From the NCBI RefSeq assembly GCF_030273445.1, contig NZ_CP120678.1:969501-1033500 (forward strand): a stretch of DNA of 64,000 nt, written 5' to 3'. A program made the translations under genes and the position numbers. Source of the stretch: Selenobaculum gibii (GTDB taxonomy: Bacteria; Bacillota; Negativicutes; ICN-92133). The notes beneath the pieces are model-generated. The model searched no databases, was not told the DNA's origin, and saw nothing but the letters and a program-made list of their open reading frames with translations. Below are positions 4,198 through 49,011 of this stretch, in pieces. Each line of letters opens with the position of its first letter. Position 1 is the first letter of the stretch.

Positions 4198-4719
4198 ATG
4201 ATGAATGGAGTAAATCTTGTCTTTCAACGAATAAAAGAAATTGAAACTAGATTTGGTATTTCAGGGGCTAGTTATACTGGAGTAAAAATGAATAGCGCAA
4301 AGGCCAATGCTAGTAAATTCCACAATGAAGGTGCATTGAAATCTGAAAATGATTTTTCAGATTTGATTCGTCAGGCTGCTCATAAATATGGAGTAGATGC
4401 TAAATTAGTAGATGCGGTAGCAAAAACTGAGTCCAATTATTCTCCTACAGCAGTTTCCGAAGTTGGAGCAGTCGGGATCATGCAGTTAATGCCGGATACA
4501 GCGTCTTCCTTAGGGGTAAATAATATTTATGACCCAAAAGAAAATATTGAAGGTGGCGTTAAGTATATAAAACAACTCCTAAATACTTTTGATGGCGATG
4601 TAAAGAAAGCTGTTGCTGCATATAATGCTGGTGCACAAGCTGTAAAGAATTATAATGGAGTTCCTCCATATACAGAAACACAAAATTATGTAAGTAAAGT
4701 TTTAGATTTATATCGTTAA
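4198..4719 (+). CDS. Flagellar-operon lytic transglycosylase (SLT domain)
   Basis: This 173-residue protein carries a soluble lytic transglycosylase domain that cleaves the peptidoglycan glycan strand, presumably to let the rod or hook pass through the wall. The catalytic glutamate is in ESNY (Glu78), followed by the GIMQLMP motif (residues 93-99) and the AAYNAG motif further on. No clear signal peptide is visible; the first 50 residues look like a linker, so export through the flagellar apparatus itself is possible but is inference. It sits between fliJ and a MotE-like gene. The start is ATG at 4198, with another ATG directly after it. Confidence 0.9.
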   Translation: MMNGVNLVFQRIKEIETRFGISGASYTGVKMNSAKANASKFHNEGALKSENDFSDLIRQAAHKYGVDAKLVDAVAKTESNYSPTAVSEVGAVGIMQLMPDTASSLGVNNIYDPKENIEGGVKYIKQLLNTFDGDVKKAVAAYNAGAQAVKNYNGVPPYTETQNYVSKVLDLYR

Positions 4720-4756
4720 GATGATTTTGTATATTATTTAGAAAGTAGGTAAGCAG

Positions 4757-5392
4757 ATGGCGATTTGGCGAAAAAATAACGAACAGACAACAGAAGCAAC
4801 TAAAAAACCGAATCGTTTTTTACGCTTAATAAAAATTCTAGCTTTTATCTTATTATTTCTTTGTTTGATTATAGGGGGGTTCTTTTTAGGGGTGTATTTA
4901 CGTGTTTTTGATGTAAATGCAATGAATGAGAAACTAGAGCTATATAAATACCCTGTGATTGGACAGTACTTTGAGCAGCCCGAGAATATCGATGAAAAAG
5001 AACACAGTGATAATATTGAACTAAAGTCTAAGCCAGCAGCTAAATCAGAGGTAAAACAAGACTTGTTGAAGAATAATAATGCAAATGGTAGGACGAACCC
5101 TAACAGTGCTGTTGTCCTAACAAAAGAAGAGATTGAAAAACAAATGAAACTTCGACAGGCAGAAGAAAAAAAACGTATTTCAAAGCTAGCAAGGCTTTAT
5201 AATGAGATGAAGCCGGAAGATGCCGTTAAATTACTAGAACAACTTGATGATAATATGGTATTAGCTATTATGGGGAAAATGGAAGATGATCAGGTTGTCC
5301 AGATTTTACCGCTTTTTAATACTGCACGTGGAGCGCATTTAACGCGTATTATGTATAATGGAAAACCTCCGGTTGTTACGGAGGTAAGATGA
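4757..5392 (+). CDS. MotE-like flagellar protein with MgtE N-terminal-type domain
   Basis: The 211-residue protein has a basic cytoplasmic start, one membrane segment (about residues 25-47), a Lys/Glu-rich linker and a C-terminal domain reading MKPEDAVKLLEQLDD...DDQVVQILPLF. That pattern is the MgtE intracellular N-domain fold found in MotE/FlbB-type flagellar proteins. In other bacteria such proteins stabilise the stator or help assemble the motor. Its place between a transglycosylase and fliK fits that family. The exact role here is inferred; it is not a magnesium transporter because the transport domain is absent. Confidence 0.8.
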   Translation: MAIWRKNNEQTTEATKKPNRFLRLIKILAFILLFLCLIIGGFFLGVYLRVFDVNAMNEKLELYKYPVIGQYFEQPENIDEKEHSDNIELKSKPAAKSEVKQDLLKNNNANGRTNPNSAVVLTKEEIEKQMKLRQAEEKKRISKLARLYNEMKPEDAVKLLEQLDDNMVLAIMGKMEDDQVVQILPLFNTARGAHLTRIMYNGKPPVVTEVR

Positions 5393-9544: not shown

Positions 9545-9577
9545 GATGTTTTATCCTTTACATGGAGGTGTGGATGA

Positions 9578-10063
9578 TTGGCTGAAGAAGAAAAAACAAA
9601 AGAACAACCAGCTAAAAAATTCCCTATGCTTATGGTTGTAGGGCTGGTTGTGGTAGGATTATTGTTAGCTGGAGCTGTATCGTACTTTATTGCGACAAAG
9701 GTAATGGCTGATTCTGCTACCAAAATAGAAAAGCGAGACCCAGGAATATTTTTGAAACTTGGTGACAAAGATGGAATGATTGTTAATGTTGGCGGTGTAA
9801 AGAGTGGGCGTTTTCTTAAAGTGGGTGTTGTCTTAGAGATGCGTGCACCGAAAAGTGAAAAAGCAGAAGAAGGAAAACTAAGTTCGGTTACAGAAACTAA
9901 ATTATTAGATTCCGTCTTACAATTGTTACGGTCACAAAAAATAGAGGATTTTGATCCATTAAAGCAAGAAGAGTTAAAAACACAAATAAAAAATGAAGCA
10001 AATAAAGTGCTTGGTGAGGATTGTGTTTATGAGGTTTATATTACCAGCTTTGTGTTGCAGTAA
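9578..10063 (+). CDS. fliL: Flagellar basal-body protein FliL
   Basis: FliL is a single-pass inner-membrane protein that surrounds the stator and supports torque generation. The 161-residue product has a short charged cytoplasmic start, a membrane helix (about residues 18-40) and a periplasmic domain with the usual DPGIFLKL...GGRFLKVGVVLEM-like pattern (seen as KSGRFLKVGVVLEM) and a C-terminal VYEVYITSFVLQ strand. The TTG start at 9578 is supported by GGAGG at 9564-9568 with 9 bases of spacing. fliM follows 47 bases later. Confidence 0.92.
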   Translation: MAEEEKTKEQPAKKFPMLMVVGLVVVGLLLAGAVSYFIATKVMADSATKIEKRDPGIFLKLGDKDGMIVNVGGVKSGRFLKVGVVLEMRAPKSEKAEEGKLSSVTETKLLDSVLQLLRSQKIEDFDPLKQEELKTQIKNEANKVLGEDCVYEVYITSFVLQ

Positions 10064-10110
10064 TGATATAACTGATGTTCACTTAAGCTTAAATGAAAGG
10101 AGGGTGAACA

Positions 10111-11115
10111 TTGGCCGCGTCTGATGTCTTATCGCAGTCAGAAATTGATCAGTTGTTATCAGCTTTGTCTACTGGTGTTGTTTCTGCAGAAGAAATAAAA
10201 GATGAAGAGAAACAAAAGAAAATAAAAGTATATGATTTTAAACGACCTGATAAATTTTCAAAAGACCAAATTAGAACTTTATATATGTTACATGAAAACT
10301 TTGCACGTTTATTGAATACATATTTATCTACACATCTTAGAGCTATCGTTAACGTAAATGTTGCTTCCGTTGATCAGTTGACATATGAGGAATTTGTAAG
10401 GTCTTTATCTAACCCAAGTGTTATTGGGGTATTAAACATGGAACCTTTAAAGGGAAACATTATTTTTGAAATGAATCCTAATATTGCTTTCGTTATTATA
10501 GATCGTCTTTTTGGTGGTTTAGGCGAAAGTTTGTCAAAAATAAGGGCTTTGACTGATATTGAAGAAGTAATTATTCGTAGAGTATTTAATAAAGCTTTGG
10601 AGAGCTTTAAGGAAGCATGGCATAATGTGATTGAAATAACGCCTAAATTAGAGGCGATTGAAACCAATCCGCAATTCACCCAGATTGTTCCACCTAATGA
10701 TATGGTGGTTATTATTACCTTGCAGGTGAAAATTGGTGATATAGAAGGTTTAATGAATATCTGTATTCCTTATCTTGTACTGGAGCCAGTTATGTCAAAA
10801 TTAACGACCACCTATTGGGTAGCTTCCTCAGTGGCGAAAGAAGATCATCCTGAACAGGTTAAAGTTTTACAACGGAAGATTGAAAAAACGTATGTGCCGC
10901 TTATTGTTGAACTTGGAAAAATTGATATTACTGTTCAAGAGTTTTTAGATTTGGCAGTAGGTGATGTTTTACAGCTAGATGCGAAAGTTGGCAATGAATT
11001 AAACGTAATTGTAGGTAGAAAGTCTAAGTTTTGGTGTAGACCAGGCACCTCAAGTAATAAGGTTGCTGTACAAATAGCAAGGGTAAATACAGAAGGGGAT
11101 GATGAGGATGAATGA
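10111..11115 (+). CDS. fliM: Flagellar motor switch protein FliM
   Basis: FliM is the C-ring protein that binds phosphorylated CheY and FliG to switch rotation. The 334-residue product begins with the CheY-binding peptide (LSQSEIDQLLSAL), followed by the CheC-like middle domain with the FGGLGE motif and a C-terminal SpoA/FliN-type domain (QEFLDLAVGDVLQLD). The start is a TTG at 10111 after AAGGAGGGTG. Its 3' end overlaps fliY, so the two switch proteins are translated together. Confidence 0.95.
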   Translation: MAASDVLSQSEIDQLLSALSTGVVSAEEIKDEEKQKKIKVYDFKRPDKFSKDQIRTLYMLHENFARLLNTYLSTHLRAIVNVNVASVDQLTYEEFVRSLSNPSVIGVLNMEPLKGNIIFEMNPNIAFVIIDRLFGGLGESLSKIRALTDIEEVIIRRVFNKALESFKEAWHNVIEITPKLEAIETNPQFTQIVPPNDMVVIITLQVKIGDIEGLMNICIPYLVLEPVMSKLTTTYWVASSVAKEDHPEQVKVLQRKIEKTYVPLIVELGKIDITVQEFLDLAVGDVLQLDAKVGNELNVIVGRKSKFWCRPGTSSNKVAVQIARVNTEGDDEDE

Positions 11116-42609: not shown

Positions 42610-42630
42610 AAATAAATAAACAAGTATAAT
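42602..42630 (+). promoter_or_regulatory. Possible promoter before structured element copy 1
   Basis: A weak TTGCAT (42602-42607) and a perfect TATAAT (42625-42630) are 17 bases apart. Transcription would begin near 42637, just before the first hairpin of the structured element. Confidence 0.4.
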
Positions 42631-42642
42631 TATAAACAAGGC

Positions 42643-42812
42643 TGTTTCAGTGGGAGTTTTAACTCCCACTGAAATCAGACCCGTAATCCAGGGGGGGACG
42701 AGGCCTTTACTTCCGCTTAAGAATGGAGGTATTATAAGCAGAGAACCAAAATCTTTGATTTTGTGTGAATCGCTTATTTCGATAGATGACCCCGTTAGCC
42801 ATCAGATAAAAG
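42643..42812 (+). ncRNA. Conserved structured intergenic element, copy 1 (leader-like RNA or repeat)
   Basis: The region before the GNAT gene folds into several hairpins: a 14-bp stem (42645-42658 with 42661-42674), CAAAATC-TTT-GATTTTG (42747-42763), ATCG-N7-CGAT (4269-to-83 of this line, i.e. 42769-42783) and GATG-N11-CATC (42785-42803). The same order of hairpins recurs at 48,668-48,850 on the other strand with compensatory base changes. The last stem ends 69 bases before the GNAT ATG. I cannot name the family. The opposite orientation is not excluded because the stems are symmetric. Confidence 0.6.
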
Positions 42813-43369: not shown

Positions 43370-43633
43370 CAATAAGCACAAAAGCATTGATCAAGAGAAG
43401 TAAATCAGAAGTATTTTTTAGAGAGCTGAGGTTTGGTGGAACTCAGTAAATTCGCTGATTGAAATACACTTGTAAGCTACAGGCTGAACACTTTTGGTAA
43501 ATAGGCTGTGTCGGAATGCCACCGTTATCATAGGCTAGAGTATGTATGTACTTGAATTGAGTGGCTTGCTTTGGCAAGCAGGGTGGTACCACGGGTAGTT
43601 TAACTCGTCCCTGATATAGGGGCGGGTTTTTTT
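43370..43633 (+). promoter_or_regulatory. T-box leader, probably tyrosine-specific
   Basis: T-box RNAs sense uncharged tRNA and decide between termination and read-through. Visible here are the Stem I elements (AGTA, GAGAGCTGAGG and GGTGGAACTCAG), the T-box core GGGTGGTACCACGG (43581-43594), and a terminator ACTCGTCCCT/AGGGGCGGGT (43603-43627) followed by seven T. In the specifier region GAAATACA (43461-43468) the codon in the usual place is TAC (43465-43467), i.e. tyrosine. This agrees with the downstream aroF and tyrA genes for tyrosine synthesis. Confidence 0.93.
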
Positions 43634-44683: not shown

Positions 44684-45567
44684 GCGAATTAAAAATTTGC
44701 ATTGTTGGGATTGGATTAATTGGCGGCTCAATTGGATTAGCACTAAAAAAAGAATTGCGGGATAAAGTTTGTATTTCAGGTTTGGATAAAAATCGCGAAA
44801 CTTTACGTATTGCTGTCGAACGTGGTGCTGTAGATATGGCGACTAGTGATTATGCACAAGCGGTAAAAGATGCAGATATCATTTTTTTTAGTACTCCGGT
44901 ATTACAGATTGGGCCAATGGTTGAAAAGATATTGCCATTTATAAAATCAGGAGCGGTAATTACGGATACAGGAAGTACAAAACAATTTATATGGCAACAA
45001 TTAAGAAAAATTTTACCGCCTGATATTTATTATGTTGCTGGACATCCTATGGCAGGAAAAGAACATAGTGGAATAAAAGCAGCTGATGCAAATTTATTTA
45101 AAAATAAATGTTATGTGATTGTTGAGGATACCGGGGCACCACGTAAAGTTGTTCACAAGATATGTTCTATTCTGAAACTTACTGGTGCGAACATTACAAC
45201 ACTGGATATAGCTAAACATGATCGTTGCGCCTCGATTATCAGCCATGTGCCACATGTAACTGCAGCGGCGTTAGTTACGCTATTAAATCATAATAAAAAT
45301 GACATTGAGGCGAATTTAAAGCTTGCGGGTGGTGGATTTAAGGATACAACGCGAATTGCCTCTTCTAATGCGGATATGTGGGCGGATATTTGTATGTCAA
45401 ATCCAGAAGCAATTATGGCTCATTTAGAAGAGTTAAAAGAAATCATTGATACGGTGATTATTGATATAAAGAATAAAAATAGAGAAAACATTTATGATTA
45501 TTTTTATGAGGCAAAAGAGCGACGAGATAAGATTCTTGATAAAACGCATAATTTATTTGAAATTTAA
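44680..45567 (+). CDS. tyrA: Prephenate dehydrogenase
   Basis: TyrA oxidatively decarboxylates prephenate to 4-hydroxyphenylpyruvate, the tyrosine branch. The 295-residue product has the NAD-binding GIGLIGGSIGLAL at the start, DTGSTKQ, GHPMAGKEHSG and SHVPHV. No chorismate mutase or ACT domain is fused. It overlaps aroF by four bases, and both lie behind the tyrosine T-box. Confidence 0.96.
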   Translation: MSELKICIVGIGLIGGSIGLALKKELRDKVCISGLDKNRETLRIAVERGAVDMATSDYAQAVKDADIIFFSTPVLQIGPMVEKILPFIKSGAVITDTGSTKQFIWQQLRKILPPDIYYVAGHPMAGKEHSGIKAADANLFKNKCYVIVEDTGAPRKVVHKICSILKLTGANITTLDIAKHDRCASIISHVPHVTAAALVTLLNHNKNDIEANLKLAGGGFKDTTRIASSNADMWADICMSNPEAIMAHLEELKEIIDTVIIDIKNKNRENIYDYFYEAKERRDKILDKTHNLFEI

Positions 45568-45605
45568 AAAATACTGCTTGACCATTATGGTCAAGCAGTA
45601 TTTTT
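45567..45605 (+). terminator. Strong terminator after tyrA
   Basis: AAAATACTGCTTGACC and GGTCAAGCAGTATTTT pair perfectly over 16 bp around ATTAT and end in a T run. The flanking A run means it could also work in the opposite direction. Confidence 0.9.
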
Positions 45606-48667: not shown

Positions 48668-48850
48668 TATTTATCCGATACTAATCCGCTCATCTGACGA
48701 AATATACGTCACACAAAATCGGAGATTTTGGTTCGTGGCTTTTAGGCTTCCACATTTTACATATGGGAATTATAACCATAGGACCAGGTGAACGGTTAAG
48801 TTACTGGATAAGGGCGGCTAAGACTCAGAGGGAGTAAAACTCCATCTGAA
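48668..48850 (-). ncRNA. Conserved structured intergenic element, copy 2 (leader-like RNA or repeat)
   Basis: On the minus strand this region repeats the hairpin order of copy 1: a 10-bp stem with one mismatch (48848-48839 with 48835-48826), CAAAATC-TCC-GATTTTG (48730-48714), GACG-N7-CGTC (48710-48696) and GATG/TATC (48694-48677). Blocks such as TTATCCAG and GAACCAAAATC match copy 1. Stem changes between copies are compensatory. The 441-base gap 48,628-49,068 holds this element, then an AT-rich stretch with a weak 32-codon frame (48,893-48,991) and the next promoter. Confidence 0.6.
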
Positions 48851-49011
48851 TCAAGTCTTAATTTACCGTATCCTATGAATTTGGAGGTAAGAGTGATACA
48901 AAATCTTATGAATTTTCACATAGTTACTTTATTGTTTTGTATTGAATTTGACGTGAGAAGTTTAATATATTTTTTAATATATGATTTTTAGCGTACTTTA
49001 AAAATAAAATA

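Follow-up and report, generated by a model that had tools for sequence, protein, structure and literature searches.

An intergenic hairpin element of Selenobaculum gibii is very probably one copy of a non-coding mobile DNA repeat

The 2004 paper on bcr1 reportedly noted TTTAT in flanking position. The bcr1 repeat is non-coding, structured, mobile, and mostly chromosomal, with a length of ~150 bp, an association with TTTAT, tens to more than 100 copies, and an unknown enzyme (PMC6542083, PMC2267715). Genome-wide RNA surveys mention unnamed mobile or repeat candidates in Clostridia and Negativicutes, and our search of the open literature found no account of the repeat described here, which we call E. 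Likened by described features, the TTTAT-flanked bcr1-like miniature repeats appear to be the closest known kind to E.

Two copies of E lie in the window, the whole stretch of 64,000 nucleotides from Selenobaculum gibii that was analysed. The original prediction of two related intergenic regions ~6 kb apart on opposite strands, with common hairpins and sequence blocks, was borne out, as a single covariance model (R1, built from 16 E cores with module H left out) matches both: copy 1 at 42630-42810 (54.9 bits, E 5e-9) and copy 2 (69.1 bits, E 7e-12). The borders of copy 1 had been set at 42643-42812; they are in fact 42632-42810, the first 11 bases having been missed. Copies 1 and 2 have 36-nt arms that are 83% complementary, and the sequence AAGCNNNGAACCNAAATC has only 2 exact matches in the window. 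The features of the two copies are as follows.

42632..42810, + strand: E copy 1 (179 bp, subfamily A), which contains module H, between nth and the GNAT gene
42632..42636, + strand: 5' boundary pentamer ATAAA of copy 1; almost every copy begins with this pentamer, and empty sites have it once
42645..42674, + strand: HP1, the 5' hairpin TTTCAGTGGGAG-TTTTAA-CTCCCACTGAAA, helix 1 of the family consensus
42684..42705, + strand: 5' arm of the HP2 closing helix (TAATCCAGGG...GAGGCC), consensus helices 2-4
42706..42734, + strand: inner hairpin of HP2 (TTTACTTCCGCTT...GGAGGTATTA), consensus helices 5-6
42735..42787, + strand: module H, a hairpin unit distinct from E and inserted into it (TAAGCAGAGAACCAAAATC-TTT-GATTTTGTGTGAATCGCTTA and a tail)
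42788..42805, + strand: 3' arm of the HP2 closing helix (GACCCCGTTAGCCATCAG), from the covariance model
42806..42810, + strand: 3' boundary pentamer ATAAA of copy 1 (TTTAT on the other strand), the probable target sequence
48670..48866, - strand: E copy 2, subfamily B, 197 bp, with module H
48724..48741, - strand: start of module H in copy 2 (AAGCCACGAACCAAAATC), from a sequence match

Elsewhere in the window, a T-box leader (Rfam RF00230, 134 bits) was found at 43378-43615, ahead of a DAHP-synthase-like gene. A perfect 19-bp inverted repeat (AAAAATACTGCTTGACCAT / ATGGTCAAGCAGTATTTTT) at 45567-45605, between convergent genes, is probably a two-way terminator.

E is far more abundant than the two copies originally counted. 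Searches with each window copy located full or partial copies at ~45 distinct places in the 2.68 Mb genome, which is a single contig. These copies are dispersed, have no coding capacity, and form two subfamilies, A (ATAAACAAGGCTG...) and B (ATAAAGTAGACTTG...), that have the same 3' end, CATCGGATAAA. The two ends of the element, ATAAAG/CAAGG... and ...CATCGGATAAA, are not inverted repeats of each other. Many copies are internal-deletion derivatives in which both ends and the 5' hairpin are retained, and the minimal derivatives (L021, L024, and L056) consist of ATAAA-HP1-CATCGGATAAA alone. Placement was intergenic for 28 of 30 copies, beside unrelated genes, and no common regulon was visible among the genes next to these 30 copies. 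Single copies could possibly act in mRNA stability or termination.

The search of relatives by covariance model, proposed together with the original prediction, covered 200 genomes from the same class: 46 of them, belonging to 27 of 82 genera, contain E, and one (G141) has it at 110 places. Another class genome, G085, appears to be that of Sporomusa termitida, a species of Negativicutes, because its RAYT match has the same coordinate as one in plasmid NZ_CP036260; by inference, this agrees with the original placement in Negativicutes. E was also present in 12 of the 16 named genomes examined. The Clostridium genomes among them carry from 14 to at least 150 copies by the same model; they include C. 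magnum (at least 150), C. sp. OS1-26 (67), and C. carboxidivorans (35). Collections of phages and plasmids showed no sequence similarity to E.

The clearest view of movement comes from two congeners in the same class, G005 and G037, rather than from copy 1 itself. Most of the G005 copies examined differ from their consensus by 0-2 mismatches. With E removed, the flanks of G005 copies match G037 in one piece at several loci. At the G037 empty sites for three of them (L200, L188, and L385) there is one pentamer (ATAAA; ATCAA at L188), against ATAAA-element-ATAAA at the occupied sites, for example GGTATA-ATAAA-ATAGATC empty and GGTATA-ATAAA-[E]-ATAAA-GTAGATC occupied. Two further loci, L381 and L379, are also free of the element in G037 but less cleanly, with small extra gaps, and L379 is ambiguous. 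A single ATAAA in the empty site becomes ATAAA-element-ATAAA in the occupied one, and therefore E moves. Insertion in this relative is precise and at ATAAA sites. In tandem copies, neighbouring E units have one ATAAA (L336) or ACAAA (L364) in common.

Copy 1 is, with high confidence, one copy of a non-coding, non-autonomous mobile hairpin DNA repeat. The option of a structured or mobile repeat, one of several originally offered, is the one that agrees with the dispersed copies, the internal-deletion derivatives, the precise empty sites in a congener, and the mixed gene contexts. E is bounded on each side by ATAAA, which reads TTTAT on the opposite strand, and has neither a transposase gene nor terminal inverted repeats; copy 1 is probably a decayed or dormant example of it. 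We infer that E relies on an enzyme from outside the element, which would recognise its hairpins and ends and place it beside ATAAA. Pairing would persist because only hairpin-forming copies are mobilised, with most copies drifting afterwards.

The end pentamers bear on how such an enzyme might act. Where a regular expression was used to collect them, only matches that contain the E core were counted. Across 15 G005 copies, the 5' pentamer was always ATAAA, while the 3' pentamer varied (ATAAT twice, ACAAA once). In G178, likewise, the 5' pentamer is nearly fixed and the 3' free. C. magnum copies have ATGAA on the 5' side, where the search pattern begins 3 bases inside the pentamer (the 5' column reads xxxAT, then GAA), and mostly ATAAA on the 3' side. 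By sequence, the 3' pentamer thus resembles a target and the 5' pentamer a part of the element, an asymmetry that argues against a plain 5-bp target duplication. One locus, L319, has matching deviant pentamers on both sides (ATTAA/ATTAA), which would point the opposite way, towards target duplication.

One specific form of the mobile-repeat explanation is that E is a palindrome-associated element (PATE), moved as single-stranded DNA by a Y1 transposase of IS200/IS605 type. On this reading, TTTAT would serve as target on one side, and on the other side E would be cleaved at a site of its own, TTTAT/TTCAT. We regard this as a tentative option. It fits the subterminal hairpins, the lack of terminal inverted repeats, the fixed pentamer beside one end, and the asymmetry of the pentamers in the young G005 copies and in C. 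magnum (ATGAA/ATAAA), and Y1 proteins co-occur with E in 42 of the 46 genomes. However, the R1 model placed no E within ~1.5 kb of 48 Y1 loci, and neither a Y1 gene nor any other mobilising enzyme or parent insertion sequence with E-type ends was found among these loci. Four E genomes have no Y1 match at all, including G178 with its 20 copies, and genomes with an IS200-type Y1 and no RAYT are not clearly enriched in E (6/70, versus 4/84 for genomes without any Y1). The matched pentamers of L319 are also at odds with a PATE. Finally, a lagging-strand preference has been described for IS608 and ISDra2 (PMC6006769); E copies were not biased in orientation between the genome halves of G005, C. sp. 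OS1-26, or the S. gibii genome, and no strong bias emerged wherever the origin was placed. In its own genome, a broken IS200-type TnpA in two frames (L061/L064, C1:1901467-1901783) adjoins an E remnant. This relic was considered as an autonomous partner and rejected, as its ends differ from those of E.

A second specific form, which we consider improbable, is that E is the equivalent of a REPIN, moved by RAYT-like proteins (TnpA-REP, subclass 2.1). RAYT-like proteins occur in 36 of the 46 E genomes and in 10 of the 154 others (odds ratio 52). At the level of families the association is weak (p 0.007-0.06) and may follow genome size and lineage, because E and RAYT-like genes are each frequent among the larger genomes sampled. 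Ten E genomes lack RAYT-like genes, including G190, which has 25 copies with a median identity of 95% among the nine compared. No RAYT gene flanked by E was found in the ~1.5 kb flanks of the 48 Y1 loci. At least some RAYT-like genes are instead flanked by inverted repeats of GGGGACG type that are unrelated to E; such flanking repeats have been described for TnpA-REP subclass 2.1 (PMC6006769). RAYT-like genes were rejected as the mobiliser of E on account of these inverted repeats of their own. In the S. gibii genome, a RAYT-like gene lies between GGGGGACGTTCCTTTTTTGTCA inverted repeats (L463, ~9546-10280) as a TIRYT-type element.

Pairing within E is well conserved. The consensus comprises the 5' hairpin HP1 and a long branched HP2 closed by TATCC...GGATA, with a core of ~130 bp. 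Among 16 diverse sequences, 93.4% of paired cells can pair, compared with 28-44% when the alignment is slid, and double changes were seen in 24 of 40 pairs versus 9.6 in shuffles, so the original observation that stems change together is upheld. The three compensatory hairpins on which it had been based fared unevenly. The change from CAGT/ACTG to CAGA/TCTG falls inside the consensus helix HP1, which has compensatory changes in 10 of 18 pairs of the family consensus and is kept even in the shortest deletion derivatives. The other two are outside the consensus. Judged by eye, the stem that changes from ATCG/CGAT to GACG/CGTC forms in only ~5 of the 15 own-genome copies inspected, and ATCGCTT pairs there with AAGCNGA instead, while the 3' side of the GATG/CATC hairpin pairs with the middle of the element and closes HP2.

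Such covariation, along with the mostly intergenic placement, could also be expected of a stand-alone structured RNA family that has multiplied and whose RNA is the functional form, a reading we judge very unlikely. In the E stems of 98 distinct sequences, G-U cells are no commoner than A-C cells (122 vs 128). As a control, the acceptor and T stems of tRNAs at these loci gave 51 G-U and 2 A-C; ARAGORN and the filter favour standard pairs, which skews the control towards G-U. Since G-U is about equal to A-C and fold stability is alike on both strands, pairing in E is kept as palindromic DNA, and its mismatches resemble strand-blind decay. Rfam gave no match to E, only chance matches at gathering and permissive thresholds, so that check did not return a described RNA family. 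The deletion derivatives and empty sites, moreover, show mobile DNA, and neither a promoter nor a terminator at copy 1 rises above chance. The TATAAT noted ahead of copy 1 is present, but it has no -35 partner, and promoter-like matches there are not above chance. The equal G-U and A-C counts, the unrelated neighbour genes in all orientations, and the missing Rfam match fit a mobile DNA repeat rather than a strand-specific RNA. The candidate unnamed RNA family finds no support as a functional RNA: its structure covaries, but with no strand preference and no Rfam match. With ~45 copies in the own genome and others scattered over hundreds of places in genomes of Negativicutes and Clostridium, a mobile DNA hairpin accounts for the matched base changes.

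That E acts as a cis-regulatory leader RNA of the gene behind it, as a riboswitch or by binding a protein, is extremely unlikely, since the covariation, the strong plus-strand folding of the window copies (z -4.8 and -4.4), and their position 62 nt and 42 nt upstream of co-directional gene starts are countered by a minus-strand fold of similar stability, strand-symmetric mismatches, the lack of an Rfam match, and scattered placement without the consistent downstream gene set that had been looked for (of 29 scorable own-genome copies, 18 have a co-directional downstream gene and 11 an opposed one). The originally noted placement ahead of a gene start is therefore not general among the copies.

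The mobile repeat E is itself a host to other modules. Module H, AAGC.G.GAACCAAAATC-nnn-GATTTTGTGTGA.TCGCTT, makes up most of the blocks that were first recognised as common to copies 1 and 2. Its own stem covaries, with AAGC/GCTT and AAGT/ACTT in 54 and 17 of 74, respectively. Many own-genome E copies carry H inside HP2, and other E copies (L005, L014, and L017) are without it. In the own genome, H is positioned after the GGGAGTATTA strand, and in C. magnum it is in the apical loop of HP2; these differing positions indicate separate acquisition. H also occurs alone, in tandem, right after stop codons, and beside tRNA 5' fragments. At five loci (L085, L127, L152, L164, and L151), it starts exactly at an apparent TAA stop codon, in the same gene in L127, L152, and L164. 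At three others (L074 ~560-690, L129 ~4690-4900, and L145), it directly follows a tRNA 5' fragment that ends in the D loop, with another copy of the tRNA downstream, and in L129 the unit is in tandem. In Alkaliphilus sp. NORP52, a HEARO RNA match (L070:2895-3243, 114 bits) encloses two tandem H hairpins on the opposite strand and is 138 nt longer than the 211-nt model.

Other nested arrangements were observed. In C. magnum, another module (CGTCTACGACCCGGGGCTTTGCCCGTTAAATGCC...) is inserted in the HP1 loop of E (L126, L150, and L154), and in the genus of G005 a different insert of ~100 nt (GTGAGCCTTGGATTCG...CTGTTAACGAGATG) is present in the HP2 loop (L175, L185, and L236). A sister repeat family of C. 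magnum (TTGAAGCAAGATCTTAATTCAG...GTTAGTCAGG; L073, L115, L126, L130, L141, L142, and L147) has a similar two-hairpin layout with H in the loop, and a longer repeat of C. uliginosum (GGCACAT...AACAAGTC...GACTTGTTATT; L069, L093, L102, and L119) encloses H. It is conceivable, though we consider it doubtful, that H is an independent mobile hairpin of ~45-75 bp that favours structured sites (E loops, tRNA 5' fragments, HEARO RNA, other repeat families, and H itself) and spreads across Clostridia, Negativicutes, and Synergistes. If true, this would amount to nested 'repeats of repeats' in bacteria, driven by an undescribed hairpin-targeting recombination system.

These results close the candidate 'new RNA family'. 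What takes its place is a specific test case: a TTTAT-flanked hairpin element, abundant and recently mobile, that Negativicutes and Clostridium have in common. E would be a strong false positive in covariance-based RNA screens of Negativicutes and Clostridium genomes, and the count of G-U versus A-C cells tells a mobile DNA hairpin from a functional RNA at no cost. The recent burst of E in G005 relative to G037 could help to trace the enzyme behind such repeats, which is sought for bcr1 as well.

Like bcr1, E is non-coding, structured, TTTAT-associated, present in many copies, and mobile without a known enzyme. The TTTAT at both ends of bcr1 also has its counterpart, as ATAAA stands at both ends of most E copies and once in empty sites. 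Unlike E, bcr1 is reported to be restricted to the B. cereus group, and E has two hairpins and nested modules. PATEs and other IS200-IS605-derived elements resemble E in their subterminal hairpins, absence of terminal inverted repeats, and fixed short target beside one end; E differs in that no related transposase-bearing element was found and no strand bias between genome halves was observed. REPINs and REP sequences with RAYT transposases are, similarly, palindrome pairs mobilised in trans with many intergenic copies, but no RAYT adjoins E, and the RAYT-like genes present have other inverted repeats. By description, E is also like MITEs and the modular BOX and RUP repeats of pneumococcus, which are small, non-coding, intergenic, and modular, with deletion derivatives, yet it lacks terminal inverted repeats, and the search for a parent insertion sequence found none. 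We have filed E as a 'miniature mobile hairpin repeat', set apart from the bcr1, MITE, PATE, and REPIN families.
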